Assembly: GCF_000373565.1 (NCBI RefSeq)
Contig: NZ_KB891842.1
Coordinates: 62,001 to 126,000 of the forward strand
Origin: Streptomyces sp. HmicA12
GTDB taxonomy: Bacteria; Actinomycetota; Actinomycetes; Streptomycetales; Streptomycetaceae
Reading direction: 5' to 3'
Length of the DNA: 64,000 bases
Part shown: positions 18,125-58,344 of the stretch, in pieces
Layout of the letters: the number at the start of each line of letters is the position of its first letter
Position numbering within the stretch: position 1 is the first letter of the stretch
The notes under the pieces: generated by a model
Database searches by the model: none
Told to the model about the DNA's origin: nothing
Seen by the model: only the letters and a program-made list of their open reading frames with translations
Made by a program: the position numbers and the translations under genes

Positions 18125-18140
18125 ATACTGTCTACAGTAT
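18125..18140. promoter_or_regulatory. Operator-like palindrome (site 1) between fdhD and an OFA transporter
   Basis: ATACTGTCTACAGTAT is a perfect 7-bp inverted repeat with a 2-bp centre. It lies in the 217-bp divergent gap, about 100 bp from each start codon. The same ATACTGT/ACAGTAT words recur upstream of both GntR genes, sucC, the acyl-CoA-dehydrogenase-like gene and fdsG, so it is probably an operator for the FCD-GntR proteins encoded at 20958 and 54841. Confidence 0.7.
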
Positions 18141-18240
18141 GGATGCCGAGCCGACAAGGGTCCGCGGCGCGGGCGGTCCGCCCGGCTCTTTCCGCAGGCG
18201 CTCTTCCCAACTCCCTTGGCTCTGCCTACCTTTCGGGATC

Positions 18241-19593
18241 ATGAAGCTCCCTGTCGCGCCACCTGGCTGGAGCCGCTGGCTCGTACCCCCGGCCGCTCTC
18301 TCCGTCCATCTCTCCATCGGCCAGGCCTATGCCTGGAGCGTCTTCAAACCCGCTCTCGAATCGTCGCTGCACCTCAGCGGCACACAGAGCGCGCTGCCGT
18401 TCCAGCTCGGCATCGTGATGCTCGGCCTGTCCGCCGCGTTCGGCGGCACGCTCGTCGAACGCAACGGGCCGCGCTGGGCGATGTCCGTCTCCCTCGTCTG
18501 CTTCTCGCTCGGCTTCCTGCTCTCCGCGCTCGGCGCCGGCCTGGAGCAGTACTGGCTGATCGTCTTCGGCTACGGCTTCGTCGGCGGCATCGGCCTGGGC
18601 ATCGGCTACATCTCCCCGGTCTCCACCCTGATCAAGTGGTTCCCGGACCGCCCCGGCATGGCCACCGGCATCGCGATCATGGGCTTCGGCGGCGGCGCGC
18701 TGATCGCCTCACCGTGGAGCGCGCAGATGCTGGAGTCGTTCGGCGACGGCAACGGCGGCCTGGAACTGGCGTTCCTGGTGCACGGCCTCGTGTACGCGGT
18801 CTTCATGTCGCTGGGCGTGCTCCTTGTCAGGGTGCCGGGCAAGGACGTGCGGGCGGAGTCGCGGGGAACCGCGCGCTCCACACCCACGGGACCGCAGGTG
18901 ACGGCGAATCAGGCCATCCGCACGCCGCAGTTCTGGTGCCTGTGGGTCGTGCTCTGCATGAACGTCACCGCCGGGATAGGCATCCTGGAGAAGGCGGCGC
19001 CGATGATCACCGACTTCTTCCAGGACACCAGCACCCCGGTCTCCGCGTCGGCCGCCGCCGGCTTCGTGGCCCTGCTGTCCGCCGCGAACATGGCGGGCCG
19101 CATCGGCTGGTCCTCGACCTCCGACCTCATCGGCCGCAAGAACGTCTACCGCCTCTACCTCGGCGCGGGCGCCCTGATGTACCTCCTCATCGCCCTCTGG
19201 GGCGACTCCTCGAAACCCCTCTTCGTGCTCTGCGCCCTCGTGATCCTCTCCTTCTACGGAGGCGGCTTCGCGACGATCCCCGCCTACCTGAAGGACCTCT
19301 TCGGCACCCACCAGGTCGGCGCCATCCACGGCCGCCTGCTCACCGCCTGGTCCACGGCGGGCGTGCTCGGCCCGCTCATCGTGAACCGGATCGCCGACAG
19401 CCAGGAAGACGCGGGCAAGCATGGACAGGACCTCTACGGCCTCTCGTTCATGATCATGATCGGCCTGCTGGTCGTCGGCTTCGTCGCCAACGAACTCGTC
19501 CGCCCGGTCCACCACCGCCACCACCTCGTCCCCGCCCCCAGGGAGTCCTCCGATGACGCAGCCGCCGCCCGAGACCGTCAGCAATCCGCCTGA
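18241..19593 (+). CDS. OFA-family MFS transporter (oxalate/formate antiporter type), copy 1
   Basis: A 450-aa 12-TM MFS protein of the OFA family, to which OxlT belongs. Hallmarks are HLSIGQAYAWSVFKPALE in TM1, GIGLGIGYISPVSTLIKWFPDRPGMATG in TM4-5 and NMAGRIGWSSTSDLIGRKNVY in the mid-loop. The start is taken as ATG 18241, where the conserved sequence begins. ATG 18139 is in frame but overlaps the operator-like palindrome. Its 3' end overlaps a 47-aa one-helix gene. Location next to fdhD fits oxalate/formate exchange, but related OFA proteins carry other monocarboxylates. It is clearly divergent from the other three OFA proteins here, which resemble one another. Confidence 0.9.
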   Translation: MKLPVAPPGWSRWLVPPAALSVHLSIGQAYAWSVFKPALESSLHLSGTQSALPFQLGIVMLGLSAAFGGTLVERNGPRWAMSVSLVCFSLGFLLSALGAGLEQYWLIVFGYGFVGGIGLGIGYISPVSTLIKWFPDRPGMATGIAIMGFGGGALIASPWSAQMLESFGDGNGGLELAFLVHGLVYAVFMSLGVLLVRVPGKDVRAESRGTARSTPTGPQVTANQAIRTPQFWCLWVVLCMNVTAGIGILEKAAPMITDFFQDTSTPVSASAAAGFVALLSAANMAGRIGWSSTSDLIGRKNVYRLYLGAGALMYLLIALWGDSSKPLFVLCALVILSFYGGGFATIPAYLKDLFGTHQVGAIHGRLLTAWSTAGVLGPLIVNRIADSQEDAGKHGQDLYGLSFMIMIGLLVVGFVANELVRPVHHRHHLVPAPRESSDDAAAARDRQQSA

Positions 19594-19696
19594 GCGCAGG
19601 GCCCTGATCGCCTTCGCCTGGCTGTGGGTCGGGGCGCCGCTCGCCTACGGCTTGTACGAACTGGTGCAAAAGGCGACACAGCTGTTCACGGGCTGA
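19553..19696 (+). CDS. 47-aa one-helix protein, probable OFA transporter small subunit
   Basis: ATG 19553 is preceded by GGGAG at 8 nt and the frame runs to TGA 19694-19696. The protein has a Pro-rich head, one hydrophobic helix (ALIAFAWLWVGAPLAYGLYE) and a short basic/aromatic tail (LVQKATQLFTG). It overlaps the last 41 bp of the transporter gene in another frame, so translation is probably coupled. Small proteins of this pattern, annotated as 'MFS transporter small subunit', follow OFA transporter genes in other bacteria. No such gene accompanies the other three OFA copies here. Confidence 0.8.
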   Translation: MTQPPPETVSNPPERRALIAFAWLWVGAPLAYGLYELVQKATQLFTG

Positions 19697-19835
19697 TCGG
19701 GCGGAACTCTCCAAGCCTTGCGGCGCATTCCTGTCGCTTACGTCATCCCGTACTCGCGGGTCGCTGGCCAGACTGGAATGTCCGCAGCTCGCACGGGACG
19801 CAGGGCCCACGGGCAAGGCAACGAGGGGACCCTCC

Positions 19836-20783: not shown

Positions 20784-20863
20784 CACACGGGCCCGAAGGG
20801 GTATCCGGGGTGCCGGAGATGTGACGAGGCCAACTCCCCCTAGCTGTAGCGATTGTGCTCGGT

Positions 20864-20873
20864 AAACTGTATT
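20864..20873. promoter_or_regulatory. Operator-like half site (site 2) upstream of the first GntR gene
   Basis: AAACTGTATT contains the ACTGTAT word of the repeated operator, about 85 bp upstream of the regulator start, but no good second arm is visible. It could be a weak autoregulatory site. Confidence 0.4.
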
Positions 20874-20957
20874 CCAAAGACAATCCGTCGGAATCGGCTT
20901 GCCGGACGTACCGAGGCCCAGGGGCCGAGGAGCCCGTAGCCCAGGAGGGGGACCGCG

Positions 20958-21635
20958 ATGTTGTCCACAGGACTGCCGCAGGGGGCGGTGCCCAAGCTCG
21001 AGCGCCCGGGGCCGCTGCGCGAGCGGGTCTACGAGGCGCTGCTCGAACTCATCACCACGCGCGCGCTGCAGCCCGGCCAGCACCTGGTCGAGAGCGAGCT
21101 CGCCGGGCACCTGGGCGTCTCGCGCCAGCCGGTGCGCGAGGCGCTGCAGCGGCTCAACACCGAGGGCTGGGTGGATCTGCGCCCGGCCCAGGGCGCCTTC
21201 GTGCACGAGCCGACGGAGGAGGAGGCGGACCAACTCCTCACCGTCCGTACGCTGCTGGAGGCCGAGGCCGCCCGGCTCGCCGCGGCCAACGCGGGCAAGA
21301 CCGGGATCACCGCCCTGGAGGTACTCTGCGCCAAGGGTGAGCAGGCCGTCGCAGACGGGGACGTGGACGTGGTCGTCGCGACGAACGCCGAGTTCCACGC
21401 GAAGGTCATGGAACTCGCGGGCAACGTGGTCCTGGCCGAACTCGCCGGCCAGGTCGACGCCCGCGTCCGCTGGTACTACCAGCCGGTCGCCCGCCAGCGC
21501 GGCAAGCAGTCGTGGATCGAGCACCGCGAGCTCATCGCGGCGATCTCGGCGCGCGACGAGGCGCGGGCCACGGCGGTGATGCGGGCGCACACCGAGCACA
21601 CCCGCGAGACGTACCACCACCGCGACCGCGACTGA
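20958..21635 (+). CDS. GntR-family regulator, FCD subfamily (copy 1)
   Basis: 225 aa. Residues ~15-80 form the winged HTH (LRERVYEALLELI ... ELAGHLGVSRQPVREALQRLNTEGWVDLRPAQGAFV). The C-terminal FCD ligand domain has the metal-site pattern of that family (NAEFHAKV; EHRELIAAI; MRAHTEH). ATG 20958 follows AGGAGGGGG. It is closely similar to the protein at 54841, with a nearly identical DNA-binding segment, so both probably bind the ATACTGT/ACAGTAT operators seen across the window. FCD regulators commonly sense small carboxylates; oxalate, oxalyl-CoA or formate would fit the context (inference). Confidence 0.93.
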   Translation: MLSTGLPQGAVPKLERPGPLRERVYEALLELITTRALQPGQHLVESELAGHLGVSRQPVREALQRLNTEGWVDLRPAQGAFVHEPTEEEADQLLTVRTLLEAEAARLAAANAGKTGITALEVLCAKGEQAVADGDVDVVVATNAEFHAKVMELAGNVVLAELAGQVDARVRWYYQPVARQRGKQSWIEHRELIAAISARDEARATAVMRAHTEHTRETYHHRDRD

Positions 21636-21659
21636 TCTCGCCCGCCGGTCTCCGGATGC

Positions 21660-44279: not shown

Positions 44280-45665
44280 TCAGGCGGTGGCCGTCACCTT
44301 CTCCGCCTCCTTGCGCCCCGGCTGCCGCAGGAGCAGCGCGAACGCGGCAGCGACGATCGATATAGCACCGGCCAGCGCGTACGCCCCGTTGTAGCCCCAG
44401 GCGGCGACCACCATCGAGCCGAGCCCGCCGCCGAACAGACCGCTGATCAGCTTTCCGCTGTACACGAGGCCGTAGTTGGTGGCGTTGTAGTTCTCCCCGA
44501 AGTAGTCCGGGGTCAGGGCCGCGAACATCGGGTAGAACGCGCCACCGCCGAAGCCCGACAGGAACGCGAAGACCAGGAACAGCCATTCGCTCTTGATGTT
44601 CCCGGCCCAGATCACGCCGAACTGCGCGAGACCCAGCACGACGATCACGAACACCAGGCTCGACTTGCGGCCCCAGATGTCCGAGAGCCAGCCGACGACG
44701 GCACGCCCGACGCCGTTGATGACCGTCATGACACCCATCGACGACGCGGCGACCAGGGGACCGAAGCCGACTTCCTTGGCGAAGTCCACCTGGAACGAGA
44801 TCCCGAAGATCGACACACCGGCCGTGAGGACCAGGCTCACCCACATGATCGGCAGCATTCCGGTCCTGACGGCCTCCATCGGCGTGAACTGGCGTACCGC
44901 CGGCGGATTCTTGGCGAGCGACCTCGCACGCTTGCTGGAACCGGTCTTGTCGAGCGGGTCGACGTCGTGCGGCCACCAGTTCTTCGGCGGGTCCTTGAAG
45001 AAGAACGCGCAGACCAGCACGACCACCAGCACGTACGCGCCGATCATGTCGAGCACCCGGTGGTAATTGCCCGTGTCGAAGGCGTAGTTGAAGATGAAGA
45101 TGAAGGGCAGCGACCCGTAGGCGAAACCACCGTTGACGAACCCGGTCTTTCCGCCCTTACGTTCCGGGAACCACTTGCCGACCATGTTGATGCACGTCGA
45201 ATAGACGAGGCCTGAGCCCAATCCGCCGATGACGCCGAATCCCAGGATGGCCAGCCATACATTGTGCATGTGCGAGAGGGCGAGGAAGCCGATCATGCAC
45301 ATGAACGCGCCGAGCATGACCGCTCGCTTGGCGGGGAGAATGTTCTTCTCCCGCAGCCAGCCGGCCGGGAACGCGATACCTGCCTGGAAGAACACCCAGA
45401 CGCTCAGGATCCAGAAGGTGTTCGACTGCGTCCAGCCATGGGCGGCGGACAGGGTGTCCTCCGCCGAGCCGTACGCGTACTCGGAGACGCTGATGGCCAT
45501 CATCGCGACCCATGGCAGGTACACCATGAACTTACGGGAATGGCCGAGGATGTCGCGGTCGGTCTCGCCGATGCGATAGACCCGGCCGTTCTCGTCGGTG
45601 ATTTCTCGGTACGTGGTGCCGGTGGACGGTGTCGAACTTCCTGCGGCGATGGGCTCCGCCGTCAT
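44280..45665 (-). CDS. OFA-family MFS transporter, copy 3
   Basis: 461 aa, 12 TM segments. An N-terminal tail REITDENGRVYRIGETDRDILG precedes TM1. MVGKWFPERKGGKTGFVNGGFAYGSLPFIFIF and DPPKNWWP are shared with the copies at 45667 and 55686. The open frame extends upstream, but ATG 45665 lies 1 bp after the previous stop (45667-45669), so the pair is coupled. Probable oxalate, formate or related monocarboxylate carrier. Closest in sequence to the 55686 copy. Confidence 0.9.
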   Translation of the reverse strand: MTAEPIAAGSSTPSTGTTYREITDENGRVYRIGETDRDILGHSRKFMVYLPWVAMMAISVSEYAYGSAEDTLSAAHGWTQSNTFWILSVWVFFQAGIAFPAGWLREKNILPAKRAVMLGAFMCMIGFLALSHMHNVWLAILGFGVIGGLGSGLVYSTCINMVGKWFPERKGGKTGFVNGGFAYGSLPFIFIFNYAFDTGNYHRVLDMIGAYVLVVVLVCAFFFKDPPKNWWPHDVDPLDKTGSSKRARSLAKNPPAVRQFTPMEAVRTGMLPIMWVSLVLTAGVSIFGISFQVDFAKEVGFGPLVAASSMGVMTVINGVGRAVVGWLSDIWGRKSSLVFVIVVLGLAQFGVIWAGNIKSEWLFLVFAFLSGFGGGAFYPMFAALTPDYFGENYNATNYGLVYSGKLISGLFGGGLGSMVVAAWGYNGAYALAGAISIVAAAFALLLRQPGRKEAEKVTATA

Positions 45666-45666
45666 A

Positions 45667-47052
45667 TCAAGCCATCTCCTCACCGAGCGGTTGCGGGTTG
45701 GGTTGAATGCCACGGGACTTGGGCCTGCCCGGAGGGGACAGGAAGAGAGCGACGATGCCCGCGAAGAACGAGATGCAGCCGGCCAGGATGAAGGCGCCGT
45801 CCAGCCCCCAGGCGCCGACGACGAAGGAACCCATTCCCGCGCCGAGCCCGGAGACCAGCTTCGAGCTGTAGACCATCCCGTAGTTGGTCGCGTTGTTGTT
45901 CTCGCCGAAGTAGTCCGCGGTCATCGCCGCGAACATCGGGAAGATGGCACCGCCGCCGAAACCGGAGATCGCGGAGAAGATCAGGAACAGGGAAAGGATC
46001 TTCTGCTCGGCGGACCAGAGGATGCCGAACTGGGCCAGGCCGAGAATGACACAGACGGCGAGCAGGCACTGTTTGCGGCCGTAGAGATCGGAGAGCCAGC
46101 CGATCACGCCGCGCCCGGTGCCGTTGACGACCGCCTTGAGGGACATGGCGGTGGCCACGATGCCGCCGGCGAATCCCGCGTGCTCACCGATGTCCACCTG
46201 GAACGAGATGCCGAAGATGTTCACGCCCGAGGTGCAGGCGAGACAGAACCACATCAGCGCCACCCGGCCGGTCCGCCAGGCCTCCATGGGGCTGTACTGG
46301 TGCACCGCCGGCGGGTTCTTCTCCATTGCGCGACGCGCGCGCGGGTCGTCCGGCGGGTTGAGCGGGTCGACCTCCGCGGGCCACCAGTTCTTCGGCGGGT
46401 CCTTGAAGAAGTACCCGGCGACAGCCACCATGCCGGCCAGGAAGACGCCGACCGAGACCAGGATGACCGCGTAGTTGGACACGTCCATCACGGTCGTGAA
46501 CAGGAAGACGAAGGGCACGGACCCGTAGGCGAAACCGCCGTTGACGAAGCCGGTCTTGCCGCCCTTGCGCTCCGGATACCACTTGCCGACCATGTTGACG
46601 CAGGTGGCGTACACCATGCCCGCGCCCATACCGCTGAACATGCCGAAGCCGATGAAGGCGAGCACAGGATGCGGGGCGAAGGCCAGCGAGAGGTAACCGC
46701 AGAGCGTTCCGAACGCTCCGATGACCATCGCCTGCCGGGCCGGCAGCTTGCCGCTCTCCCGCAGTCGTCCGGCCGGGAAGGCCACTGCCGCCTGGAAGAA
46801 GACCCAGGTGGTCAGCATCCAGTAGATGCTTCCCGAGGACCAGTGATGTGCGTCGTGCAGTGCGTCCTCGGCGGACGCGAACGCGTACTCCGCCGAGCTG
46901 ATGCCCATCATGCCGACCCACGGAAGGATGACCATCCACTTCCGCTTGCGGCCCATGATGTCGATGTCGGACTCACCGACGCGATAGACGCGTCCGTTCT
47001 TGTCGGTCAGTTCCCGGTAGGGGACTGAACTCGGAAGATCCGTGGTGGTCAT
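45667..47052 (-). CDS. OFA-family MFS transporter, copy 2
   Basis: 461 aa. Same layout as its neighbour (YRELTDKNGRVYRVGESDIDIMG, NMVGKWYPERKGGKTGFVNGG) but more divergent, with different TM residues (YAFASAEDALHDAHHWSSG). ATG 47052 begins MTTTDLPSS. It follows the acyl-CoA ligase gene by 122 bp on the minus strand and is the third gene of the Frc-led unit. Different substrate preference from its neighbour is likely. Confidence 0.9.
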   Translation of the reverse strand: MTTTDLPSSVPYRELTDKNGRVYRVGESDIDIMGRKRKWMVILPWVGMMGISSAEYAFASAEDALHDAHHWSSGSIYWMLTTWVFFQAAVAFPAGRLRESGKLPARQAMVIGAFGTLCGYLSLAFAPHPVLAFIGFGMFSGMGAGMVYATCVNMVGKWYPERKGGKTGFVNGGFAYGSVPFVFLFTTVMDVSNYAVILVSVGVFLAGMVAVAGYFFKDPPKNWWPAEVDPLNPPDDPRARRAMEKNPPAVHQYSPMEAWRTGRVALMWFCLACTSGVNIFGISFQVDIGEHAGFAGGIVATAMSLKAVVNGTGRGVIGWLSDLYGRKQCLLAVCVILGLAQFGILWSAEQKILSLFLIFSAISGFGGGAIFPMFAAMTADYFGENNNATNYGMVYSSKLVSGLGAGMGSFVVGAWGLDGAFILAGCISFFAGIVALFLSPPGRPKSRGIQPNPQPLGEEMA

Positions 47053-47174
47053 GACTGTCGTACCCCTTGCGTCGAAAGATCTGGGCAGCGCCCCCTGTCC
47101 AAATTGCTTTCGCGTGCGCATGGGTCCTGGCCCGGCCGGCGCGCACCGCCGGCCGGAACCGCTACCGGGTCACC

Positions 47175-49328
47175 TCATCGACCGCCCCCCATCAGCCCCG
47201 CGGCCCGCGCCCACCGGTACTTCGCGCCGAGCACGGCCACCGGCTTCTCGGTCGTGTACGGGTACGCGACCACCCCGCGCTCGAACAGGTACTGGCACGC
47301 CTCCTCGACCTCGACGTCCCCGGCGAGCGACGCGACCACCGGCTTCTCGATCCCGCGCTCGCGGAACTCCTGCACGACGCGGGCCGTTACCTCCGCAAAG
47401 ACCATGGGAGGGGTGACGATGGTGTGCCAGTAGCCGAGCACGAGCGAATGAATGCGCGGGTCCTCCAGGCCGAGCCGGATCGTCGCCTCGTACGTCGACG
47501 GGGGCTCGCCGCCCGTGATGTCGACGGGGTTGCCCGCGGCCCCGAAGGGCGGGATGAACTTCCGGAAGGCGGCGTCCAGGTCGGCCGGGATCTCCATCAG
47601 CCGAAGCCCGTTGTCCGTCACCGCGTCCGAGAGCAGCACACCCGAGCCGCCCGCACCGGTGATGATCACGACGTTGTCGCCCTGCGGCGTCGGCAGCACG
47701 GGCAGCGCCCGCGCGTACTCCAGCATGTCGTTCAGGCCCGGGGCCCGGATGACACCGGCCTGCTTGAGGATGTCGTCGTACACGGCGTCGTCGCCCGCGA
47801 GGGCGCCCGTGTGCGAGCCGGCGGCCTTCGCGCCGGCGGCGGTCCGTCCCGCCTTGAGGACGACGACGGGCTTCTTCGGCACCGTCGCGCGCGCGGCCTC
47901 CACGAAGGCCCGCCCGTCCTTGAGGTCCTCCAGGTGCATGGCGATGCACTGGGTGTTGGGGTCCTCGCCGAACCAGGTCAGCAGGTCGTCCTCGTCCAGG
48001 TCGGACTTGTTGCCGAGTCCGACGATGGCCGACACACCTGTCTTGGTGGTCCGGGCGAAGCCGAGGATCGCCATCCCGATGCCGCCGGACTGCGAGGTCA
48101 GCGCCACGCCGCCCTTCACGTCGTACGGCGTGCAGAACGTGGCGCACAGGTCCTGCCACGTCGAGTAGTAGCCGTAGATGTTCGGCCCGAGCAGCCGCAC
48201 ACCGTACCGCTCGCCGATGCCGACGATCTCCTCCTGGAGCTCGTGCTCCCCGGTCTCCGCGAAGCCGGAGGGGATCAGCACCGCGTTGGGTATGCCCTTG
48301 CGGCCGACCTCCTCCAGGGCCGAGGCGACGAACTTGGCGGGAATGGCGAAGACCGCCACGTCCACCTCGCCGGGCACATCGGTGACGCTCTTGTACGCCT
48401 TGCGGCCCAGAATGTCGTCGGCCTTGGGGTTCACCGGGTGGATCTCTCCGGAGAAGCCGCCGTCGATCAGGTTGCGCATGACCGAGTTGCCGATCTTGCC
48501 CTGCTCGTTGGAGGCGCCGATCACCGCCACCGAGCGCGGCTGCATCAGCCGGTTCATGGTGGCGAGGATCTGCTCCCGGGTGTAGGTGCGGCGCTGCTTC
48601 TGCTCGCCCTCGGCGAGGATCACGCGGATGTCGGCGGCGACGGCGCCCTCGGGGGTCGCGATGACCGGGTTGAGGTCGATCTCCGCGATCTCCGGGAAGT
48701 CCGCGACCAGTTGGGACACGCGACGGATCTGCTCGGCGAGCGCCTCCCGGTCGACCCCGCGGGCGCCCCGCACCCCGCGCAGGATCTCGGCCGCCTTGAT
48801 GGAGTCGAGCATGCCCAGGGCCTCGTCGGCGTCCAGCGGCGCGAGCCGGAAGGTGACGTCCTTGAGGACCTCCACCAGCACCCCGCCGAGCCCGAAGGCG
48901 ACCACCTTGCCGAACGTCGGATCGGTGACCGCTCCGACGATGACCTCCTGGGACTCCGCCCCGGTGGGCAGCAGCTCCTGCACCTGTACGCCCTCGATGC
49001 GGGCGTCGGGCGCGTAGGCGCGGGCGTTCTCGATGATCTTGTCGAATCCGGCGCGCACGTCGGCGTCCCCCCGCACACCGACGATGACGCCGCCGGCATC
49101 CGTCTTGTGCAGGATGTCCGGGGAGACGATCTTCAGTACGACGGGCTTTCCGAAGCGTGCCGCGGCCGCCACGGCCGCGTCGGCGTCGGGTGCGAGTTCC
49201 TCGCCGGGCACGGCGATCCCGTACGCGTCGGCGATCACCTTGCCCTCGGGTGCGGTGAGCGCGGTGCGGCCCTCCGCCCGTACGGCATCGAGCAGCGCCC
49301 GTACCGTCGCGGTCCGGTCTTGTGCCAT
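47175..49328 (-). CDS. ADP-forming acyl-CoA ligase (acetate--CoA ligase family), ATP-grasp domain first
   Basis: 717 aa. Residues ~1-235 are an ATP-grasp domain (KPVVLKIVSPDILHKTDAGGV, GKVVAFGLGGVLVEVLKDV, EIDLNPVIA). Residues ~260-700 are the CoA-binding and ligase domains (SVAVIGASNEQGKIGNSVM, LTSQSGGIGMAILG). The phosphorylated His is His506 in GSHTGALAG. The order beta-then-alpha is the reverse of the common alpha-beta order. ATG 49328 or the adjacent TTG 49331 starts it, touching the frc stop. It could make oxalyl-, formyl- or acetyl-CoA with ATP; the frc context favours an oxalate-related acid. Confidence 0.9.
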   Translation of the reverse strand: MAQDRTATVRALLDAVRAEGRTALTAPEGKVIADAYGIAVPGEELAPDADAAVAAAARFGKPVVLKIVSPDILHKTDAGGVIVGVRGDADVRAGFDKIIENARAYAPDARIEGVQVQELLPTGAESQEVIVGAVTDPTFGKVVAFGLGGVLVEVLKDVTFRLAPLDADEALGMLDSIKAAEILRGVRGARGVDREALAEQIRRVSQLVADFPEIAEIDLNPVIATPEGAVAADIRVILAEGEQKQRRTYTREQILATMNRLMQPRSVAVIGASNEQGKIGNSVMRNLIDGGFSGEIHPVNPKADDILGRKAYKSVTDVPGEVDVAVFAIPAKFVASALEEVGRKGIPNAVLIPSGFAETGEHELQEEIVGIGERYGVRLLGPNIYGYYSTWQDLCATFCTPYDVKGGVALTSQSGGIGMAILGFARTTKTGVSAIVGLGNKSDLDEDDLLTWFGEDPNTQCIAMHLEDLKDGRAFVEAARATVPKKPVVVLKAGRTAAGAKAAGSHTGALAGDDAVYDDILKQAGVIRAPGLNDMLEYARALPVLPTPQGDNVVIITGAGGSGVLLSDAVTDNGLRLMEIPADLDAAFRKFIPPFGAAGNPVDITGGEPPSTYEATIRLGLEDPRIHSLVLGYWHTIVTPPMVFAEVTARVVQEFRERGIEKPVVASLAGDVEVEEACQYLFERGVVAYPYTTEKPVAVLGAKYRWARAAGLMGGGR

Positions 49329-49331
49329 CAA

Positions 49332-50561
49332 TCAGATCACTCCGTTCGACTTCAGGAGGCGCAACTCCTCGTCGCCAAGGCCCAGTTCACCGATGAAGAC
49401 CTCTTCGTTGTGTTCGCCGAGGAGGGGTGAGCTGGTGATGTCGACGGGGGAGTCGGAGAGCTTGAGGGGGGAGCCGACGGTCTTGAAGGTGCCGCGCTGG
49501 GGATGCGGCACGTCGACGACCATCTCGTTGGCGATGAGGGAGGGGTCCTCGATGATCTCCTTGGTGGAGAGGATGGGGCCGCACGGGATGTTGTGGGCGT
49601 TGAGCTTCTCCAGGACGTCCCACTTGGGCAGCGTCGAGGACCATTCCTCGATGAGCTGGAACATCTTGTTGAGCTTGGGCAGTCGCGCCTCCGGGGTCGC
49701 CCACTCGGGGTCCTCGGCGAGCTCGGGGCGTCCGATGAGTTCGCTGAGCGGCTGCCAGCCGACGGGCTGGACGATGACGTAGACGTAGTCGTTGGGCCCG
49801 CCGGGCGCGCACTGGACGGCCCAGCCGGGCTGGCCGCCGCCGGAGGCGTTGCCGGAGCGCGGGACCTCCGTGCCGAAGTCTTCGTTGGGGTACTCGTTGA
49901 GGGGGCCGTGGGTGAGGCGCTGCTGGTCGCGGAGCTTCACGCGGCAGAGGTTGAGGACGGCGTGCTGCATGGCGACGTTGACGCGCTGCCCGCGGCCGGT
50001 GTTCTCGCGCTGGAAGAGTGCGGCGAGGATGCCGGCGACGGTGTGGATGCCGGTCCCGGAGTCGCCGATCTGGGCGCCGGTGGCCAGCGGTGGTCCGTCC
50101 TCGAAGCCGGTGGTGGACATGGATCCGCCCATGGCCTGGGCCACGACTTCGTAGGCCTTGAAGTTGGTGTAGGGGCCGTCGCCGAAGCCCTTGATCGAGG
50201 CGTAGACGATGCGCGGGTTGATCTCCTGGATGCGGTCCCAGGTGAAGCCCATGCGGTCGACCGCGCCGGGGCCGAAGTTCTCGACCAGGACGTCGGAGGT
50301 GCGGATGAGCTGGGTGAGGAGCTCCTTGCCGCGGTCGGTCTTGGTGTTGAGGGTGATGCTGCGCTTGTTGCAGTTGAGCATCGTGAAGTAGAGGGAGTCG
50401 GCGTCGGGGAGGTCACGCAGTTGCTTGCGTGTGATGTCCCCTGACGGCGCCTCCAGCTTGATCACGTCCGCGCCCAGCCACGCCAGCAACTGCGTGGCGG
50501 ACGGACCCGACTGCACATGCGTCATGTCGAGGACGCGCACACCTTCAAGAGCTTTGGTCAC
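49332..50561 (-). CDS. frc: Formyl-CoA:oxalate CoA-transferase
   Basis: 409-aa class III CoA-transferase. It matches formyl-CoA transferase closely: the opening [61 protein letters not shown], the catalytic Asp167 in [10 protein letters not shown] and the Gly-rich loop [10 protein letters not shown] that shields the intermediate. Frc moves CoA from formyl-CoA (or another donor) to oxalate. GTG 50561 with GAGGTGAG upstream. First gene of the minus-strand unit with the acyl-CoA ligase and two OFA transporters. It is divergent from sucCD. Its usual partner oxalyl-CoA decarboxylase is absent from the window. Confidence 0.95.
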
Positions 50562-50740
50562 TGCCGACTCACCTCACTACTTGTACGGGTTGCGGTTCGT
50601 GGTTCCGTCGTCGACCAGCGGTGGTGCCGACCCGGCGTGCACGGCGTGGATCGCTTGCGCGTCCTGGGAGTTGCGTGCCGCGCCGGGACAGGGGCGCGGA
50701 GGACCGCGGCCCCGGTGCATGGCCTGTCGCTCGTACATTG

Positions 50741-50764
50741 CATACAGTGCTCGAATACTGTATG
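50741..50764. promoter_or_regulatory. Operator-like inverted repeat (site 3) between frc and sucC
   Basis: CATACAGT and ACTGTATG form an 8-bp inverted repeat with an 8-bp spacer, in the 269-bp divergent gap. The sequence is nearly identical to the site at 57177-57200. At 50787-50803 GGTGATGTCCAGGGGGC follows, which is also found after the other site at the same spacing. Confidence 0.7.
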
Positions 50765-50830
50765 AACTTGGTATCCCGCATCCGATGGTGATGTCCAGGG
50801 GGCGTGCGGCACTTATTTCAGGAGCCGAGA

Positions 50831-51964
50831 ATGGACCTGTACGAACACCAGGCAAGGGAACTCTTCGCGGAACACGGCATTTTGGTGCCGCAGGCCGAGG
50901 TCACAGCCTCGGCGAAGGAAGCCAGGGAGATCGCGCGCAGGCTCGGCGGCAAGGTCGTCGTCAAGGCGCAGGTGAAAACCGGAGGCCGCGGGAAGGCCGG
51001 CGGCGTCAAGCTCGCCGCCGACCCGGCCGCCGCCGAGCTCACGGCCCGCCAGATCCTGGGCATGGACATCAAGGGCCACACCGTCCGCACGGTGATGCTG
51101 GCCCAACCCGTCGACATCGAGAGCGAGTTCTACGTCTCCTACGTCCTCGACCGCGCGGCCGGCACCTTTCTCGCCATCGCCTCCGCCGAGGGCGGGATGG
51201 AGATCGAGGAGATCGCCGCCACCCGGCCCGAGGCCGTGGCCCGTGTCCCCATCGACCCGGCCAAGGGCGTCACCACCGCCAAGGCCGCGCAGATCGCCGA
51301 GGCGGCCGGCCTGCCGTCGCAGACCGTCGACGTCCTCGTACGTCTGTGGGAGGTACTGACCCGGGAGGACGCCGTCCTCGTCGAGGTGAACCCGCTCGTG
51401 CGCACCGGGCAGGGGCAGATCCTCGCGCTCGACGGCAAGGTCACCCTCGACGACAACGCCCGCTTCCGGCAGGCACGTTGGGGGGCGGCCGATGTCGCGC
51501 ACGACGACCCGCTGGAGGCGGAGGCGGCCGCCAAGGGCCTCAACTACGTCAAGCTCGACGGCGAGGTCGGCATCATCGGCAACGGCGCGGGGCTCGTCAT
51601 GTCGACCCTCGACGTCGTCGCGGGATGCGGCGCCCGGCCCGCCAACTTCCTCGACATCGGCGGCGGCGCGTCCGCCGAGACCATGGCCGACGGGCTGAAC
51701 GTCATCCTCTCCGACCCGGCCGTCAAGTCCGTCTTCGTCAATGTGTTCGGCGGGATCACCGCCTGCGACGCGGTGGCCGACGGCATCGTCAGGGCCCTGG
51801 ACAGCGTGGAGTTGACCAGGCCGCTCGTGGTCCGCCTCGACGGCAACAACGCCGAGCGCGGGCGCGCCATCCTCGACACGTGCGCCCACCCGCTGATCCA
51901 GCAGGCCACCACCATGGACGGTGCCGCGCGCCGCGCCGCCGACCTCGCCACCGCGACCGCCTGA
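50831..51964 (+). CDS. sucC: Succinate--CoA ligase (ADP-forming) beta subunit-like
   Basis: 377 aa. The ATP-grasp fold is canonical: [78 protein letters not shown] and [19 protein letters not shown] 50831 has AGGAG. It lies under an oxalate-type operator and is divergent from frc, so this is probably a dedicated second SucCD rather than the TCA-cycle pair. It may supply a CoA donor for oxalate or activate oxalate itself (inference). Confidence 0.93.
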
Positions 51965-51975
51965 GGAGCCCGGAC

Positions 51976-52860
51976 ATGGCCATCTATCTCACCGAGGAGA
52001 GCAAGGTCCTCGTCCAGGGCATGACCGGGGCCGAGGGCACCAAGCACACCCGCCGCATGATCGCCGCGGGAACGAACGTGGTCGGCGGGGTCAATCCCCG
52101 CAAGGCCGGCACCCAGGTCGACTTCGACGACCGCGCGGTCCCCGTCTTCGGCAGCGTCGCCGAGGGCATGCGGGCCACCGGCGCCGATGTCACCGTCGTC
52201 TTCGTGCCGCCCGCCTTCGCGAAGGCGGCCGTCGTCGAGGCCGCCGACGCGGGCATCCCGCTCGCCGTCGTCATCACCGAGGGCATCCCGGTCCACGACT
52301 CCGTCGCCTTCACCGCGTACGCGAAACAGAAGGGCACCCGGATCGTCGGCCCCAACTGCCCCGGGCTGATCTCGCCCGGGCAGTCCAACGCGGGCATCAT
52401 TCCGGCCGACATCACCAAGCAGGGCCGGATCGGACTCGTCTCCAAGTCGGGCACGCTCACCTACCAACTCATGTACGAGCTGCGGGACATCGGCTTCACC
52501 TCGTGCGTCGGTATCGGTGGCGACCCCGTCATCGGCACTACGCACATCGACTGCCTGGCCGCGTTCGAGAGCGACCCCGAGACCGAACTCATCGTCCTGA
52601 TCGGGGAGATCGGCGGCGACGCCGAGGAGCGCGCGGCCGCCTACATCCGCGACAGCGTCACCAAGCCCGTGGTCGCGTACATCGCCGGGTTCACCGCGCC
52701 CGAAGGCAAGACCATGGGGCACGCGGGCGCCATCGTCTCCGGTTCGTCCGGCACGGCGCAGGCGAAGAAGGAGGCCCTGGAGGCCGTCGGCGTACGCGTC
52801 GGCTCGACACCCACGGAGACCGCGCGCCTCGTCCTGGACCGGCTCGCGGCCGAACAGTGA
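51976..52860 (+). CDS. sucD: Succinate--CoA ligase (ADP-forming) alpha subunit-like
   Basis: 294 aa with the CoA-binding Rossmann part ([31 protein letters not shown]), [19 protein letters not shown] and the phosphohistidine loop [13 protein letters not shown] (His249). ATG 51976, 11 bp after sucC, with GAGGAG in the stop region. Forms the heteromeric ligase with SucC. A terminator follows at 52908-52936. Confidence 0.93.
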
Positions 52861-52907: not shown

Positions 52908-52936
52908 ACGGGAGGTGTCCCTGGGGCACCTCCCGT
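52908..52936 (+). terminator. Hairpin terminator after sucCD
   Basis: ACGGGAGGTG pairs with CACCTCCCGT, extended by three more pairs (one G-T) to a 13-bp stem with a 3-nt loop, about 50 bp past the sucD stop. The remaining ~100 bp to the next start probably hold a promoter. Confidence 0.8.
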
Positions 52937-53037
52937 CCACGAGCGAAACCCGCAAGCGAACCCTCAAGGGAAGCTCACCAGCCGACCAAGCCATGCAACT
53001 GACCGCCCCCGAATGTGCACCGAGAGCGGAGAGAACA

Positions 53038-54579
53038 ATGGCCACCACCCTCAAAGCCGGAACGTCCTGGGACGACGCCTGGCGGCGGTGCCTCGCCGTC
53101 GCGCCCGAGGCGTTCCAGGAGGACCGCGTCCTCAACCTCTGGAACGGCGTCTGGCACGCCGACGGCCGCGCGCTGCCGGCCACCAGCCCCGTCGACGGCA
53201 GCCCGATCGCGGGCCCGCCGCGGCTCGACGCGGACACCGCCCACCGGGCCGTACGCGCCGCACTGGACCAGCACCGCGCCTGGCGCCACATCGCCCTGCC
53301 CGAACGCCGCGCCCGCGTCGCCGCCACCCTGGACGCCCTCACCCAGCACCGCGACCTGCTGGCGCTGTTGCTGGTGTGGGAGATCGGCAAGCCGTGGCGG
53401 CTGGCGACGGCGGATGTGGACCGGGCGATCGACGGTGTCCGCTGGTACGTGGATCACGCCGACGAGATGCTCGGCGAGCGGACGCCCTTGGACGGCCCGG
53501 TGTCGAACGTCGCGAGCTGGAACTATCCGATGAGCGTGCTGGTGCACGCGATGCTGGTGCAGGCCCTTGCCGGCAACGCGGTGATCGCCAAGGCGCCGAC
53601 GGACGGAGGTGTCGCGTGTCTGACGCTGGCGTGCGCGCTGGCCGTCCGTGAAGGACTGCCGTTCACGCTGGTCAGCGGCAGCGGGGGAGAGCTCTCGCAG
53701 GCGCTGGTGCGGGCGCCGGAGATCGGGTGCGTGTCGTTCGTGGGCGGTCGGGACACCGGTGCGGCGGTGGCCACGGCGGTCGCCGACCTGGGCAAGCGGC
53801 ACATCCTGGAGCAGGAGGGCCTGAACACCTGGGGGATCTGGAACTTCAGCGACTGGGACAAGCTGACCGCGGTGATCCCCAAGCTGTTCGACTACGGCAA
53901 GCAGCGCTGCACCGCCTACCCGCGGTTCGTCGTGCAGCGGGACGCCTTCGACGCGTTCCTCGACGCCTACCTCCCGGCCGTCCGACAGCTGCGGATCGGC
54001 CACCCGCTCGCCGTGGAACATCCCGAAGACCCTTATCCGCAGCTGGACTTCGGGCCTCTGATCAACGCGGCGAAGGCGAAGGAACTCACCGACCAGGTGA
54101 ACGAGGCCATCGACCGCGGAGCCGTACCGCTGCACCGCTCCGCGCCCGACCCCGATCGCTTCCTTCCGGGGCAGGACACGAGCGCGTACGTCCATCCGGT
54201 CACGCTGCTCGGGCCGCCGGCGTCGTCGCCGCTGCACCACGCGGAGCCGTTCGGCCCGGTGGACACGATCGTGCTGGTGGACACGGAGGCGGAGCTGCTC
54301 GCGGCGATGAACGCCTCCAACGGTGCGCTGGTGGCGACGCTGTCGACGGACGACGAGGCGACCTTCGGGCGGCTGGCCCCGCAGATCAGGGCGTTCAAGG
54401 TCGGCCAGGGCAAGCCGCGTTCACGCGGTGACCGCGAGGAGCTGTTCGGCGGATTCGGCGCCTCCTGGCGGGGCGCCTTCGTCGGCGGCGAGCTGCTCGT
54501 CCGCGCGGTCACCCAGGGCCCGGCCGGAGAACGCCTCCCCGGCAACTTCCCGGCCTACACGACGACACCGGAGGTCTGA
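53038..54579 (+). CDS. Aldehyde dehydrogenase family protein
   Basis: 513 aa with an ALDH fold. The catalytic Cys is Cys291 (GKQRCTAYPR) and the general-base Glu lies in HILEQEGLN, where most ALDHs have LELGGKN, so the active site is atypical. Other marks are NVASWNYPMSVLVHAML and the late AEPFGPV. ATG 53038 with GGAGAGAAC upstream. It lies between sucCD and the second GntR gene. A CoA-acylating role (oxalyl-CoA to glyoxylate) would fit the neighbourhood, but ordinary semialdehyde oxidation is equally possible. Confidence 0.88.
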   Translation: MATTLKAGTSWDDAWRRCLAVAPEAFQEDRVLNLWNGVWHADGRALPATSPVDGSPIAGPPRLDADTAHRAVRAALDQHRAWRHIALPERRARVAATLDALTQHRDLLALLLVWEIGKPWRLATADVDRAIDGVRWYVDHADEMLGERTPLDGPVSNVASWNYPMSVLVHAMLVQALAGNAVIAKAPTDGGVACLTLACALAVREGLPFTLVSGSGGELSQALVRAPEIGCVSFVGGRDTGAAVATAVADLGKRHILEQEGLNTWGIWNFSDWDKLTAVIPKLFDYGKQRCTAYPRFVVQRDAFDAFLDAYLPAVRQLRIGHPLAVEHPEDPYPQLDFGPLINAAKAKELTDQVNEAIDRGAVPLHRSAPDPDRFLPGQDTSAYVHPVTLLGPPASSPLHHAEPFGPVDTIVLVDTEAELLAAMNASNGALVATLSTDDEATFGRLAPQIRAFKVGQGKPRSRGDREELFGGFGASWRGAFVGGELLVRAVTQGPAGERLPGNFPAYTTTPEV

Positions 54580-54734: not shown

Positions 54735-54750
54735 ATACTGTGTACAGGAT
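54735..54750. promoter_or_regulatory. Operator-like palindrome (site 4) upstream of the second GntR gene
   Basis: ATACTGTGTACAGGAT matches the site at 18125 except for the 2-bp centre and one base in the right arm. It is about 90 bp upstream of the regulator start, consistent with autoregulation. Confidence 0.65.
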
Positions 54751-54840: not shown

Positions 54841-55527
54841 ATGTTGCCGACCGCGGGACTGTCGCGGAGTGCCGTGCCCAAGCTGGATCGGCCCGGGCCG
54901 TTGCGTCAGCGGGTCTACGACACGCTCCTCGAACTCATCGTCACGCGCACGCTGCCACCCGGCGCGCACCTCGTCGAGACCGAACTCGCCGGAGAGCTCG
55001 GCGTCTCACGGCAGCCCGTACGCGAGGCGCTCCAGCGGCTGAACACCGAGGGCTGGGTCGATCTGCGACCCGCGCAGGGCGCCTTCGTGCACGAGCCGAC
55101 CGAGCAGGAGGCCGATCAACTCCTCGGTGTCCGCTCACTGTTGGAGGCCGAGGCGGTCCGGCTCGCCGCGGCCCGCGTGGACGCCCAGGCCGTCGCCGTG
55201 CTCGAGGAACTGTGCGCGGCGGGCGAGCGCGCCGTCGCCGTCGACGACGTCGACGGCCCGGAGGGTGTGGTCGTGCTCAACGCCCGACTGCACGGCATGA
55301 TCAGGGAGTTGGCCGGCAACAGCGTCCTGATCGATCTCTCGGCTCAGGTGGACCGCCGGGTCCGCTGGTACTACACACCCGTGGCACGCCAGCGCGGAAA
55401 GCGATCCTGGCTGGAACACCGGGAGTTGATCGCGGCACTGGCCGCCGGCGACGCGGAGCGGGCCGCGTCGGTGATGCACGCCCACACGGAACACACGCGC
55501 AGGTCGTACCACGAGCGCGAGCGCTGA
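54841..55527 (+). CDS. GntR-family regulator, FCD subfamily (copy 2)
   Basis: 228 aa, closely similar over its whole length to the regulator at 20958. The segment LGVSRQPVREALQRLNTEGW and the following wing DLRPAQGAFVHEPTE are shared by both, so they should read the same operator. The FCD domain differs more (NARLHGMIRELAGNSV) and the metal-site His residues are kept. ATG 54841 lies after GAAAGGGGGCTGGG. Ends just before a 31-bp perfect hairpin. Confidence 0.93.
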   Translation: MLPTAGLSRSAVPKLDRPGPLRQRVYDTLLELIVTRTLPPGAHLVETELAGELGVSRQPVREALQRLNTEGWVDLRPAQGAFVHEPTEQEADQLLGVRSLLEAEAVRLAAARVDAQAVAVLEELCAAGERAVAVDDVDGPEGVVVLNARLHGMIRELAGNSVLIDLSAQVDRRVRWYYTPVARQRGKRSWLEHRELIAALAAGDAERAASVMHAHTEHTRRSYHERER

Positions 55528-55560: not shown

Positions 55561-55632
55561 CGCAGGAGGCATGCAGGAGATGGCTCTCCCCGGTGGGCGT
55601 CGGGGAGAGCCATCTCCTGCATGCCTCCTGCG
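55561..55632. terminator. 31-bp perfect hairpin between convergent genes
   Basis: Arms at 55561-55591 and 55602-55632 are exactly complementary over 31 bp with a 10-nt loop. The hairpin lies 33 bp after the GntR stop and 53 bp before the end of the convergent transporter gene. It is a bidirectional terminator by position, but much longer than usual. Confidence 0.9.
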
Positions 55633-55685
55633 CGGCTCGCGCGGCCCGTGTCATCCGCGTGGGCCGCGCGGTCGAACCGTCGTGT

Positions 55686-57101
55686 TCAGGAGGCCGTTCG
55701 GGGCTGTGCCACGGGAGCTCCGCCGCGGCCCGGCGTCGGCCGTCCTGGCTGGCGCAGCAGCAGAGTGATCAGCGCCGCGATCAGGGACGTACCCCCGGCC
55801 AGGGCGTACGCGCCGTCGTAGCCCCACGCGCCGACCACCATGGAGCCGAGCCCGCCGCCGAACAGACCGCTGATCAGCTTGCCGCTGTACACCAGGCCGT
55901 AGTTGGAGGCGTTGTAGTTCTCGCCGAAGTAGTCCGGCGTGAGCGCCGCGAACAGCGGATAGAACGCGCCGCCGCCGAACCCGGAGAGGAACGCGAAGAA
56001 CAGGAACAGCGCCTCGCTCTTCACGTCACCGGCCCAGATCACCCCGAACTGCGCGAGCCCCAGGACGAGGATGACCATCACCAGCGTCGGCTTGCGCCCC
56101 CAGGCGTCGGACGCCCAGCCGACGACGCCGCGCCCGACGCCGTTGATGACCGCCATGACACCCATCGACGAGGCCGCGACGAGCGGCCCGAACCCGATCT
56201 CCTTCGCGTAGTCGACCTGGAAGGAGATGCCGAAGATGGAGACTCCGGCGGTGATGACGAGGGCGATCCACATCAGCGGCAGCATGCCGGTCCTGATGGC
56301 CTCCATCGGCGTGTACTGCCGGACCGCCGGCGGGTTCTTGCTCAGGCTCGCGGCGCTCTTCCCGGTGCCGCCGTGGGTGAGCGGGTCGATGTGGCCGGGC
56401 CACCAGTTCTTCGGCGGGTCCTTGAAGAAGAACGCGCAGGCGAACACGACGACCATGACGTAGACGCCGATCAGGTCCAGGACGCGGTGGTAGTTCCCGG
56501 TGTCGAAGGCGTAGTTGAAGATGAAGATGAAGGGCAGCGACCCGTACGCGAAGCCGCCGTTGACGAAGCCGGTCTTGCCGCCCTTCCGCTCCGGGAACCA
56601 CTTGCCGACCATGTTGACGCAGGTCGAGTAGATGAGCCCGGAGCCGATGCCGCCGACCACGCCGAAGCCGATGATGGCGAGCAGCACCTCGCTGACGTGC
56701 GACAGGGCGAGGAACCCGATCAGACACATCCCCGAGCCGACGAACATGGCCCGACGGGCCGTCAGGATGCCTTTCTCCCGCATCCATCCGGCGGGGAACG
56801 AGACGCCTGCCTGGAAGAAGATCCAGACGCTGAGGATCCAGAAGGTGTTGGACTGCGTCCAGCCGTGCGCGTGGGACAGCGTGTCCTCCGCCGAGCCGTA
56901 CGCGTACTCGAAGACGCTGATGGCCATCATCGCCACCCAGGGCAGGTACACCATCAGGCGGCGGGAGTGACCGAGGATGTCGCGGTCGGTCTCTCCGATG
57001 CGGTAGACGCGGCCGCGCGCGTCGGTCACTTCGCGGTACGTGCGGGGGGTCGCTCCGGATCGCTCCGGTACCCCGTTCTCCGTGCTGCGGTTCAAAGTCA
57101 T
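55686..57101 (-). CDS. OFA-family MFS transporter, copy 4
   Basis: 471 aa. Very similar to the copy at 44280: YREVTDARGRVYRIGETDRDILG, VFEYAYGSAEDTLSHAHGWTQ, NMVGKWFPERKGGKTGFVNGG, DPPKNWWPGHIDPL. ATG 57101. It is transcribed away from the 57177 operator, so it should belong to the same regulon. Probable oxalate/formate or related carrier. The N-terminal tail before TM1 is a feature of this subgroup. Confidence 0.9.
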   Translation of the reverse strand: MTLNRSTENGVPERSGATPRTYREVTDARGRVYRIGETDRDILGHSRRLMVYLPWVAMMAISVFEYAYGSAEDTLSHAHGWTQSNTFWILSVWIFFQAGVSFPAGWMREKGILTARRAMFVGSGMCLIGFLALSHVSEVLLAIIGFGVVGGIGSGLIYSTCVNMVGKWFPERKGGKTGFVNGGFAYGSLPFIFIFNYAFDTGNYHRVLDLIGVYVMVVVFACAFFFKDPPKNWWPGHIDPLTHGGTGKSAASLSKNPPAVRQYTPMEAIRTGMLPLMWIALVITAGVSIFGISFQVDYAKEIGFGPLVAASSMGVMAVINGVGRGVVGWASDAWGRKPTLVMVILVLGLAQFGVIWAGDVKSEALFLFFAFLSGFGGGAFYPLFAALTPDYFGENYNASNYGLVYSGKLISGLFGGGLGSMVVGAWGYDGAYALAGGTSLIAALITLLLRQPGRPTPGRGGAPVAQPRTAS

Positions 57102-57438
57102 CTCGGGCCGTCCCTCACAGAGCTGCGGGTTGCTTCATGTGCGGTGCCAGCGGTGCCATCCCGGCCGGGGAGATTGCATACAGTCGACGAATACTGTATG
57201 AGGATGGTTACTCTCGTGCGGTGGGTGATGTCCAGGGGGCTGCGCGAGTTTTGGGTTGCGCATTACACGTACTTAGCGCGCAGCAGGCATGGGGCGGTTG
57301 TCGTCGCCCGCGTGCGGGGCGAGGAAATCCAAAAGGGTCCGCCGTACCCCTGGCGTTGTCCTGTGCATCCGAAATACTGTATGCAATCAACGCCCGCCGT
57401 ATGGCAGCGACCAGACATCGCTACGAGGGGGTCACCCC
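57102..57438. promoter_or_regulatory. Divergent control region with two operator-like sites (sites 5 and 6)
   Basis: No gene is seen in these 337 bp. Site 5 (57177-57200) is CATACAGT-8 bp-ACTGTATG, nearly identical to the frc/sucC site, and is followed at 57224-57240 by the shared GGTGATGTCCAGGGGGC. Site 6 (57374-57387), ATACTGTATGCAAT, lies 52-65 bp before the acyl-CoA-dehydrogenase-like gene. Its complement repeats the left part of site 5 (ATTGCATACAGT). Confidence 0.7.
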
Positions 57439-58200
57439 GTGTCGTACCGCACCGCACTCACACACGTTCTGTCCGACGTCGTCGCGCCCCGCGCCGAATT
57501 GACGCGGGCGCAAGGCGTGTTCCCGCGCTCCGCCGTGACGGAGCTCGGACGCGCCGGACTCCTGGGCCTCACCGTCGCCGCCGAACTGGGCGGTGGGGGA
57601 AGGGGGTTGACCGAGGCGGCCGACGTCGTCGAAAGCGCCGCCCGCATCTGCCCGGCGACCGGAGCCGTGCTCCAGGCCCACTACGCGGCCGTGGCCGTCG
57701 TCGAGGAGTACGGCGATCCCTGGCTGCGCGGCGAGATCGCCGCGGGCCGCCATCTCTGCAGTCTCGCGCTCGCCGACGGGGAGGCGGGGCAGGATCCCGG
57801 CGCCCCGGGCCTCGGCGGCACCCCGCTTCTCGCGCCGCGTGGCACCGCCGAACAGGGCGGCGGGGTGGTGGCGCTGCGTGCCCGCAAGCGCCAGGTCGTC
57901 GCCGCGGGCGAGGCCGACATGTACCTGTGGTCGTCCCAACCGGCCACGGAGCGGGAGGGGTTGAGCCTGTGGGCGGTTCCCGCGCACGCCCCCGATCTGT
58001 TCGTCCCCGCGCGCCCCGGCCGCTCGGGCCCGCCCGGCAGTGCCACCTCCACGGTGCTCGCCGACCCGACGTTCGTGCCGGCCGAGGCGCTGCTCGGTGA
58101 GGACGGCGGTGGCCTCGACATCCTGCTGCGCACGGTGCTGCCGTGGCTCATGGAGTCGCGGGCCGCCGGTGATCCGCAGGTCACTCTGGCCGCGTCGTGA
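57439..58200 (+). CDS. Short acyl-CoA-dehydrogenase-like protein lacking the C-terminal domain
   Basis: 253 aa against about 380 in the family. The N-terminal helical domain is recognisable (ELGRAGLLGLTVAAELGGGGRGLTEAADVVE, ATGAVLQAHYAAVAVVEEYG) and part of the beta domain follows (SLALADGEAGQDP, TFVPAEALLGEDGGG). The C-terminal helical bundle that carries the usual catalytic Glu and half of the FAD site is missing. GTG 57439 follows GAGGGG. It is under site 6 and upstream of the formate dehydrogenase operon. Function unknown; it may be catalytically inactive. Confidence 0.75.
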   Translation: MSYRTALTHVLSDVVAPRAELTRAQGVFPRSAVTELGRAGLLGLTVAAELGGGGRGLTEAADVVESAARICPATGAVLQAHYAAVAVVEEYGDPWLRGEIAAGRHLCSLALADGEAGQDPGAPGLGGTPLLAPRGTAEQGGGVVALRARKRQVVAAGEADMYLWSSQPATEREGLSLWAVPAHAPDLFVPARPGRSGPPGSATSTVLADPTFVPAEALLGEDGGGLDILLRTVLPWLMESRAAGDPQVTLAAS

Positions 58201-58260
58201 ACAACCAATAGATCCAAGGGTGTTGGGGCGCGGATCCGGTCCGGGCTCTTTACGTTCGGC

Positions 58261-58274
58261 TTCTGTATACAGAA
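58261..58274. promoter_or_regulatory. Operator-like palindrome (site 7) upstream of fdsG
   Basis: TTCTGTATACAGAA is a perfect 14-bp palindrome built of the same CTGTAT/ATACAG words. Further half sites CTGTATG (58277-58283) and TACTGT (58287-58292) follow. It lies 71-84 bp upstream of the formate dehydrogenase start. Confidence 0.7.
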
Positions 58275-58344
58275 GTCTGTATGGGGTACTGTCCAGTCTC
58301 CTGCAACTTTCGCCGGGGACCCGCATGACGGAGGCGAAGCGATC

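Follow-up and report, generated by a model that had tools for sequence, protein, structure and literature searches.

Soil commonly contains oxalate as a carbon source, and the organisms considered to use it include Streptomyces. The closest described systems are regulons of GntR-type proteins. FadR-subfamily members act on operators of the pattern GTM-N0-1-KAC (PMC4494728), and HypR of Streptomyces coelicolor is both a repressor and an autorepressor (PMC6608401). Here, we analyzed a window of 64 kb (the whole stretch under study; C46:62001-126000 of a 9.16-Mb genome) from Streptomyces sp. HmicA12. For this window an earlier note had proposed that seven sites sharing the words ATACTGT and ACAGTAT join scattered oxalate and formate genes, with two FCD-type GntR regulators (GntR1 and GntR2), into one regulon. 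We observe that these sites are rare in the genome, that they occupy intergenic positions, that they are conserved upstream of the same genes in relatives, and that they co-occur with the regulator gene. It is therefore highly probable, judging from sequence, that a GntR regulator of the FadR subfamily (FCD type) uses these sites as operators and co-regulates the oxalate and formate genes. A literature search at title and abstract level, with most subscription journals outside its scope, found neither a description of this regulon nor a regulator of oxalate use for Streptomyces.

Predicted operator sites in the window and the genome

The element is a 16-bp palindrome, ATACTGT-N2-ACAGTAT, which is clearest at 18125. 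In the window, whose DNA is 70.8% GC, the exact word ATACTGT has six matches against 0.55 expected, and none of 100 shuffles gets to six. These matches form five places: 18125 with 18134 (the two arms of one palindrome), 50755, 54735, 57191 and 57374. The whole genome holds 29 matches, including these six, and 45 of the reversed word; five of the 28 places with ATACTGT fall in the window, for which the binomial chance is 1.4e-6. The earlier note had accepted random occurrence throughout the genome as a ground for giving up its proposal. In the genome motif search, ATACTGTNNRCARTAT is matched with no or one mismatch only at 18125 and 54735, the latter being the sole one-mismatch place, so the proposal stands. 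Two mismatches add 57374 and one place on contig C3. Matches with three mismatches are noise, because with up to three mismatches allowed the control gives more matches (108 versus 76 in the genome). A 16-mer scan of the surroundings of 18 of the 23 ATACTGT matches outside the window, together with the two window flanks, reached a maximum of 11 of 15 consensus positions, attained in two of the 18; the other five matches were covered only by the whole-genome 16-mer search. Two further patterns were discarded: the strict form ATACTGTN3ACAGTAT, which has the wrong spacing and no match, and the first genome-wide pattern, ACTGTNTACAGT with two mismatches, which was too loose (175 matches versus 416 for the reversed control).

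The best match to the consensus in the genome is the predicted palindromic operator at 18125..18140 (ATACTGTCTACAGTAT, 15/15; all sites are unstranded), between fdhD and OFA1. Further predicted operators lie at 54735..54750 upstream of GntR2 (ATACTGTGTACAGGAT, 14/15) and at 57374..57389 upstream of the acyl-CoA-dehydrogenase-like gene (ATACTGTATGCAATCA, 11/15). Upstream of fdsG, a predicted operator array at 58261..58292 (TTCTGTATACAGAAGTCTGTATGGGGTACTGT) opens with the perfect palindrome TTCTGTATACAGAA, after which come CTGTATG and TACTGT. The FadR-subfamily core is found at 18125 (GTCTAC) and 58261 (GTATAC), and is not matched by 54735, 57374 or the double-site halves. Those halves belong to the sites listed at 50741 and 57177, each of which is a single 27-bp double site. 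One predicted double operator, at 50738..50764 between frc on the left and sucC on the right, is an exact TTGCATACAGTN5AATACTGTATG; the second, at 57174..57200 upstream of OFA4, is likewise an exact match and carries the common spacer CGACG. Every half scores 9 or 10 of 15 against the palindrome. Read from the sequence, the two palindrome centres of a double site are 20 bp apart, and with the usual spacer three GT-N2-AC-like cores can be seen by eye, their centres 7 and 13 bp apart. The 50738 copy lacks the middle core because its spacer differs from CGACG. When 50550-50850 was scanned for core promoters in both directions, none of the sigma-70 type was detected.

The seventh site, at 20864..20879 upstream of GntR1 (AAACTGTATTCCAAAG), is a weak operator-like site. 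It holds 9 of 15 consensus positions, or 10 when the register is shifted 7 bp leftward to 20857; for shuffled upstream regions of this class the mean is ~8/15, and 5% of them attain 10. Relatives have a better site at the corresponding position. The sharing of ATACTGT/ACAGTAT by all seven sites thus needs qualification: five have the exact word, 58261 has the variant TTCTGTATACAGAA and 20864 is weak. All seven sites have their first base in intergenic DNA, although only 5.2% of 17175-63539 is of this kind when counted with a gene list that is approximate in the sugar region. As proposed, the sugar/ebo region is free of sites, since scores of at least 11/15 in the window are confined to 18125, 54735, 57374 and 58260/58267. 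Recurrence of AT-rich words by chance in high-GC DNA would be helped by the shortness of the words and by site 20864, which by itself is near the chance level, but no shuffle reaches the observed count, reversed controls gave 0 in 150 genomes twice, and the sites are conserved upstream of the same genes. For the site set as a whole, chance is refuted, and we give it practically no weight.

Co-occurrence and conservation in Streptomyces

We sampled 150 genomes of the same genus, counting as a GntR match a hit to GntR1 at E 1e-70. The exact palindrome ATAYTGTNTACAGKAT is present in 68 genomes and the 27-bp double site, with up to 2 mismatches, in 76; the reversed control is 0 for both. A GntR1 match is present in 96 genomes. 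Palindrome and GntR occur together in 67 genomes, the palindrome only in 1, GntR only in 29 and neither in 53, and the corresponding counts for the double site are 75, 1, 21 and 53. The sole exception in both tables is the same genome, G027, where GntR1 is at its usual position but split into two pieces that differ in frame (L169:13481-14145), either a broken gene or a sequencing error. G027 was considered as a contradiction of the regulator link and was ruled out as such by this broken copy. Of the 76 genomes with an frc ortholog, 74 carry the double site. When the class was sampled evenly (394 genomes), 13 genomes had the double site with 3 mismatches allowed; each of these belongs to the 40 from the window's genus, and the 354 others have none.

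Most palindromes are close to the regulator: 68 of 74 have a listed GntR gene no more than 10 kb away. Double sites share a contig with a listed GntR gene in 62 of 79 cases, and of these 21 are within 10 kb, 3 at 10-20 kb and 36 at 20-35 kb. The last two, both in G090, are 0.88 and 1.43 Mb away, in a genome whose GntR match covers only residues 15-158. In all, for 38 of the 62 the distance to the closest listed GntR gene exceeds 20 kb. G090 has the OFA3-ACD-frc-ThDP-sucC region twice (L172 and L173; ThDP, thiamine diphosphate), ~0.56 Mb apart, with matching layout and a short sucC match.

Conservation was scored in 80 loci from the regulator search, all from Streptomyces, as the best 16-mer score in the stretch from 250 nt before to 10 nt after each gene start. 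We left out rows in which the protein match started after residue 25, had <50% identity or <80 bits, was overlapped by a better match, or had <250 nt upstream. A score of at least 10/15 occurs upstream of OFA1 in 53/57 relatives, the GntR1 class in 75/79, GntR2 in 2/3, sucC in 14/14, fdsG in 4/4 and the acyl-CoA-dehydrogenase-like gene in 3/4. It occurs upstream of fabH in 3/51, the aldehyde-dehydrogenase (ALDH) gene in 1/3 and LtrA in 0/1. For genes inside operons, the counts are 0/15 for ACD, 0/8 for OFA2, 0/14 for OFA3, 1/11 for sucD, 0/5 for fdsA, 0/2 for fdsB and 0/8 for fdsD. Markov-shuffled upstream regions attain the same score in 0 to 15%, depending on the class. The site is present at most classes that lead a transcription unit and not at genes inside units, with OFA4 as an exception. 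PanE-type reductase genes have a site of at least 12 in 78 of 81 rows; most of those in relatives are transcribed divergently from OFA1 or gntR. The predicted conserved targets are the pair of OFA carrier and PanE-type reductase, gntR, sucCD opposite the frc operon, fds in a few cases, and oxc in one genome. Across the genus, the element goes with the same promoters and with the presence of the FCD-GntR gene, which supports the regulon suggested in the earlier note.

Choosing rows by the palindrome word gave 85 (80 distinct); their recurring context is TGTCGACGaAATAYTGTCTACAGTATGG, with 2.38 bits per position in the core versus 0.56 in the flanks. The core GTCTAC is found throughout these rows, which were themselves selected by that word, and the upstream GTCGAC appears by eye to be another GT-N2-AC-like core, 14 bp from the main one. 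In the 47 double-site rows (44 distinct), the core has 2.15 bits, the upstream flank 0.2, and the next 40 bp downstream 1.14. Conservation reaching ~40 bp downstream (1.14 bits versus 0.2 upstream) is more than a simple operator needs, and might reflect a different transcription factor or a core promoter, with the GntR genes as mere neighbours. However, the palindrome has a GT-N2-AC core as in FadR-subfamily operators (PMC4494728), a site of at least 10 stands upstream of gntR itself in those 75 of 79 relatives, and of the 54 genomes that lack a GntR match, 53 also lack the palindrome, the 54th having the broken copy. We therefore consider another factor improbable and favour a GntR regulator.

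Both candidates have the expected architecture of such a regulator. GntR1 (20958..21635, plus strand) and GntR2 (54841..55527, plus strand) each have an N-terminal GntR domain (PF00392) and a C-terminal FCD domain (PF07729), both above cut-off. The two proteins are identical in 162 of 229 aligned columns; their DNA-binding segments, described earlier as near-identical, share 57 of 66 residues (86%), so that wording was too strong. Histidines considered as candidates for metal binding lie in the C-terminal domain at 147, 189, 211 and 214 in GntR1 and at 151, 193, 215 and 218 in GntR2. A tree of 87 rows places GntR2 in a group with L021, L038 and L040 (support 100/98), separate from GntR1; the rows closest to GntR1 are G059 and G103.

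From these data we infer binding, the sign of regulation, the ligand and overlapping action of the two proteins. GntR1 and/or GntR2 would bind as dimers to the ATACTGT-N2-ACAGTAT-type palindrome, and the two are likely to overlap on the same sites. The co-regulated genes would include uptake carriers (OFA1, OFA4, and the frc-side genes with OFA2/OFA3) and activation genes (frc, the sucCD-like ligase and the ADP-forming ligase). In addition, the ALDH-family gene, formate oxidation (fdsGBAD and fdhD) and gntR itself would be controlled. Regulation would most likely be repression, in which these promoters stay blocked and binding of oxalate, or of a metabolite derived from it, to the FCD domain lifts the block.

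Several observations weigh against this reading. Among the sites, 20864 is weak and alone near the chance level, and several single sites depart from the core (GTGTAC at 54735, GTATGC at 57374). Upstream of frc and fdhD, scores of at least 10/15 occur in only 6/25 and 6/52 relatives; the relatives of OFA4, which sit in other contexts, have them in 0/10 and do not share the 57174 site. The fds and acyl-CoA-dehydrogenase-like classes are each supported by four relatives. The PanE-type gene of the window, following fdsD, has no site, and neither have those of L038 and L040. The exact palindrome is absent from 29 of the 96 GntR genomes and the double site from 21. Because the genomes are related, the counts are not independent events. 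An frc genome without GntR was sought among the 150 and none was found, 75 of 76 having a match and the 76th (G027) the broken copy. Regulator and targets are mostly inherited as neighbours, and therefore co-occurrence alone does not prove binding. Lastly, the genome's oxc, which we had considered as a gene of the window, lies outside it at C46:129621-131273 and has no site.

Genes of the region and the substrate

The genes run in the order fdhD, OFA1, a KAS III gene and GntR1, then the sugar region, then OFA2 to fdsGBAD. The first block has fdhD at 17175..18083 on the minus strand (NF001943, 399.7 bits; cut-off 269) and OFA1, an MFS transporter of the L-lactate/oxalate-formate type, at 18241..19593 on the plus strand (NF049980, 315/320 bits; TIGR00890, 186/375). 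Past the sugar region, four minus-strand genes, OFA2 (44280..45713, MFS_1), OFA3 (45667..47121, MFS_1), a fused-type ADP-forming acyl-CoA ligase (47175..49331; PF19045, PF13549 and PF13607, under the curated NCBIfam cut-offs) and the formyl-CoA transferase gene frc (49332..50561), are divergent from three genes on the plus strand. The frc product (TIGR03253, 685 bits; cut-off 504) is the only protein of the genome above that cut-off. The plus-strand genes encode a sucC-like CoA-ligase beta subunit (50831..51964; NF001913, 496 bits, cut-off 370), a sucD-like alpha subunit (51961..52860; PF02629, PF00549) and an ALDH-family protein (52915..54579; PF00171, 292 bits). They are followed by GntR2, the MFS transporter OFA4 (55686..57101, minus strand; MFS_1), a 253-aa protein with an acyl-CoA-dehydrogenase N-terminal domain (57439..58200, plus strand; PF02771) and the NAD-dependent formate dehydrogenase genes fdsG, fdsB, fdsA and fdsD (58345..63539, plus strand). 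The OFA labels of the earlier note are carried by sub-threshold matches only: all four proteins fall under both oxalate:formate antiporter cut-offs (TIGR04259 and TIGR00890), and OFA1 is nearest to the L-lactate carrier model (315/320 bits).

Between the convergent GntR2 and OFA4 genes, a perfect 32-nt inverted repeat with arms 8 nt apart (55561-55632) is probably a two-way terminator. Past fdsD, a hairpin at 63606-63643 precedes a PanE/ApbA-type reductase gene that starts at 63711 and runs beyond the window end (L190:711-1700); its product is a candidate oxalyl-CoA reductase. PanE2 of Methylobacterium extorquens, a putative oxalyl-CoA reductase, has been characterised and used for the conversion of oxalyl-CoA to glyoxylate (PMC8411744).

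The genome's oxc is divergent from a FadD7-type CoA ligase gene and adjoins a LysR gene (L002:1739-5306; C46:127739-131306), with TTATCG/CGATA words upstream. This locus may be a second oxalate module of the LysR type, without the GntR site. In G092, the start of a true oxc (991 bits; cut-off 739) is ~35 bp from ATACTGTATGCAGTAT; next come GntR, the ADP-forming ligase, frc, a double site and fds. L023 has true copies of both oxc (986 bits) and frc (703 bits) near GntR1 and a PanE gene that bears the site. Oxalate is favoured as the substrate because of these two cases.

We inspected 30 double-site loci. A sucC-like gene adjoins the double site in 27 (exceptions L135, L141 and L154), and the opposite side opens with a ThDP enzyme in 27, the other three (L139, L142 and L144) having frc there instead. 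In loci such as L055, L075, L176 and L181, the ThDP enzyme lies between frc and the double site. This enzyme is ~29% identical to oxc and is under the cut-off in each of its best 25 NCBIfam families, with 507/587 for acetolactate synthase, 374/600 for 2-hydroxyacyl-CoA lyase and 250/739 for oxalyl-CoA decarboxylase; its best solved relatives are 2-hydroxyacyl-CoA lyases. A hydroxy-acid pathway is possible in the species that have it, because the enzyme misses the oxc cut-off and has these solved relatives. In many Streptomyces the regulon, though real, might then serve another acid that yields formyl-CoA, for example a 2-hydroxy acid cleaved by a ThDP lyase. This would fit an enzyme that is non-oxc by the curated model yet opposite sucC in so many loci, but the enzyme is below the 2-hydroxyacyl-CoA lyase cut-off too, and no close copy is found in the window or in the four best oxc-family loci of the genome itself (28-29% identity). 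In addition, true oxc, true frc and PanE-type reductases bear or adjoin the site in other genomes. Another substrate is thus unlikely, and we retain oxalate.

Comparison with known regulators

The locus most probably represents a real, conserved regulon for oxalate and formate use under FCD-GntR control, and one that would be ordinary in kind. Only tentatively would we propose that two or more GntR dimers assemble on the almost invariant 27-bp element, which would command a whole oxalate economy in about half of Streptomyces. This economy would depart in its layout from the textbook Frc/Oxc pair, with CoA ligases of the SucCD and ADP-forming types, a reductase of the PanE type and, for many species, a ThDP enzyme of unassigned function replacing Oxc. 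Because the operator is defined and the candidate regulator has a match in 96 of the 150 sampled genomes, the question is directly testable. Operator and regulator also link genes of unclear role (those of the ThDP enzyme, the ALDH-family protein and the acyl-CoA-dehydrogenase-like protein) to one pathway.

Like the FadR-subfamily GntR regulons (PMC4494728), this one combines an FCD regulator with a palindrome that has central GT and AC. The distance between GT and AC is typically 3 nt there and 2 nt here, and the main text of that paper makes no mention of oxalate. GntR1 and GntR2 of Corynebacterium glutamicum (PMC2230225) are also two paralogous GntR-type proteins with shared targets, but those targets are gluconate and glucose genes, and the match in names is accidental. 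HypR of S. coelicolor (PMC6608401) differs in its motif, CTNTGC(A/C)ATGTCAC, and in its substrate, hydroxyproline, but it too is an FCD-type GntR protein that has a small catabolic gene set and several scattered sites.

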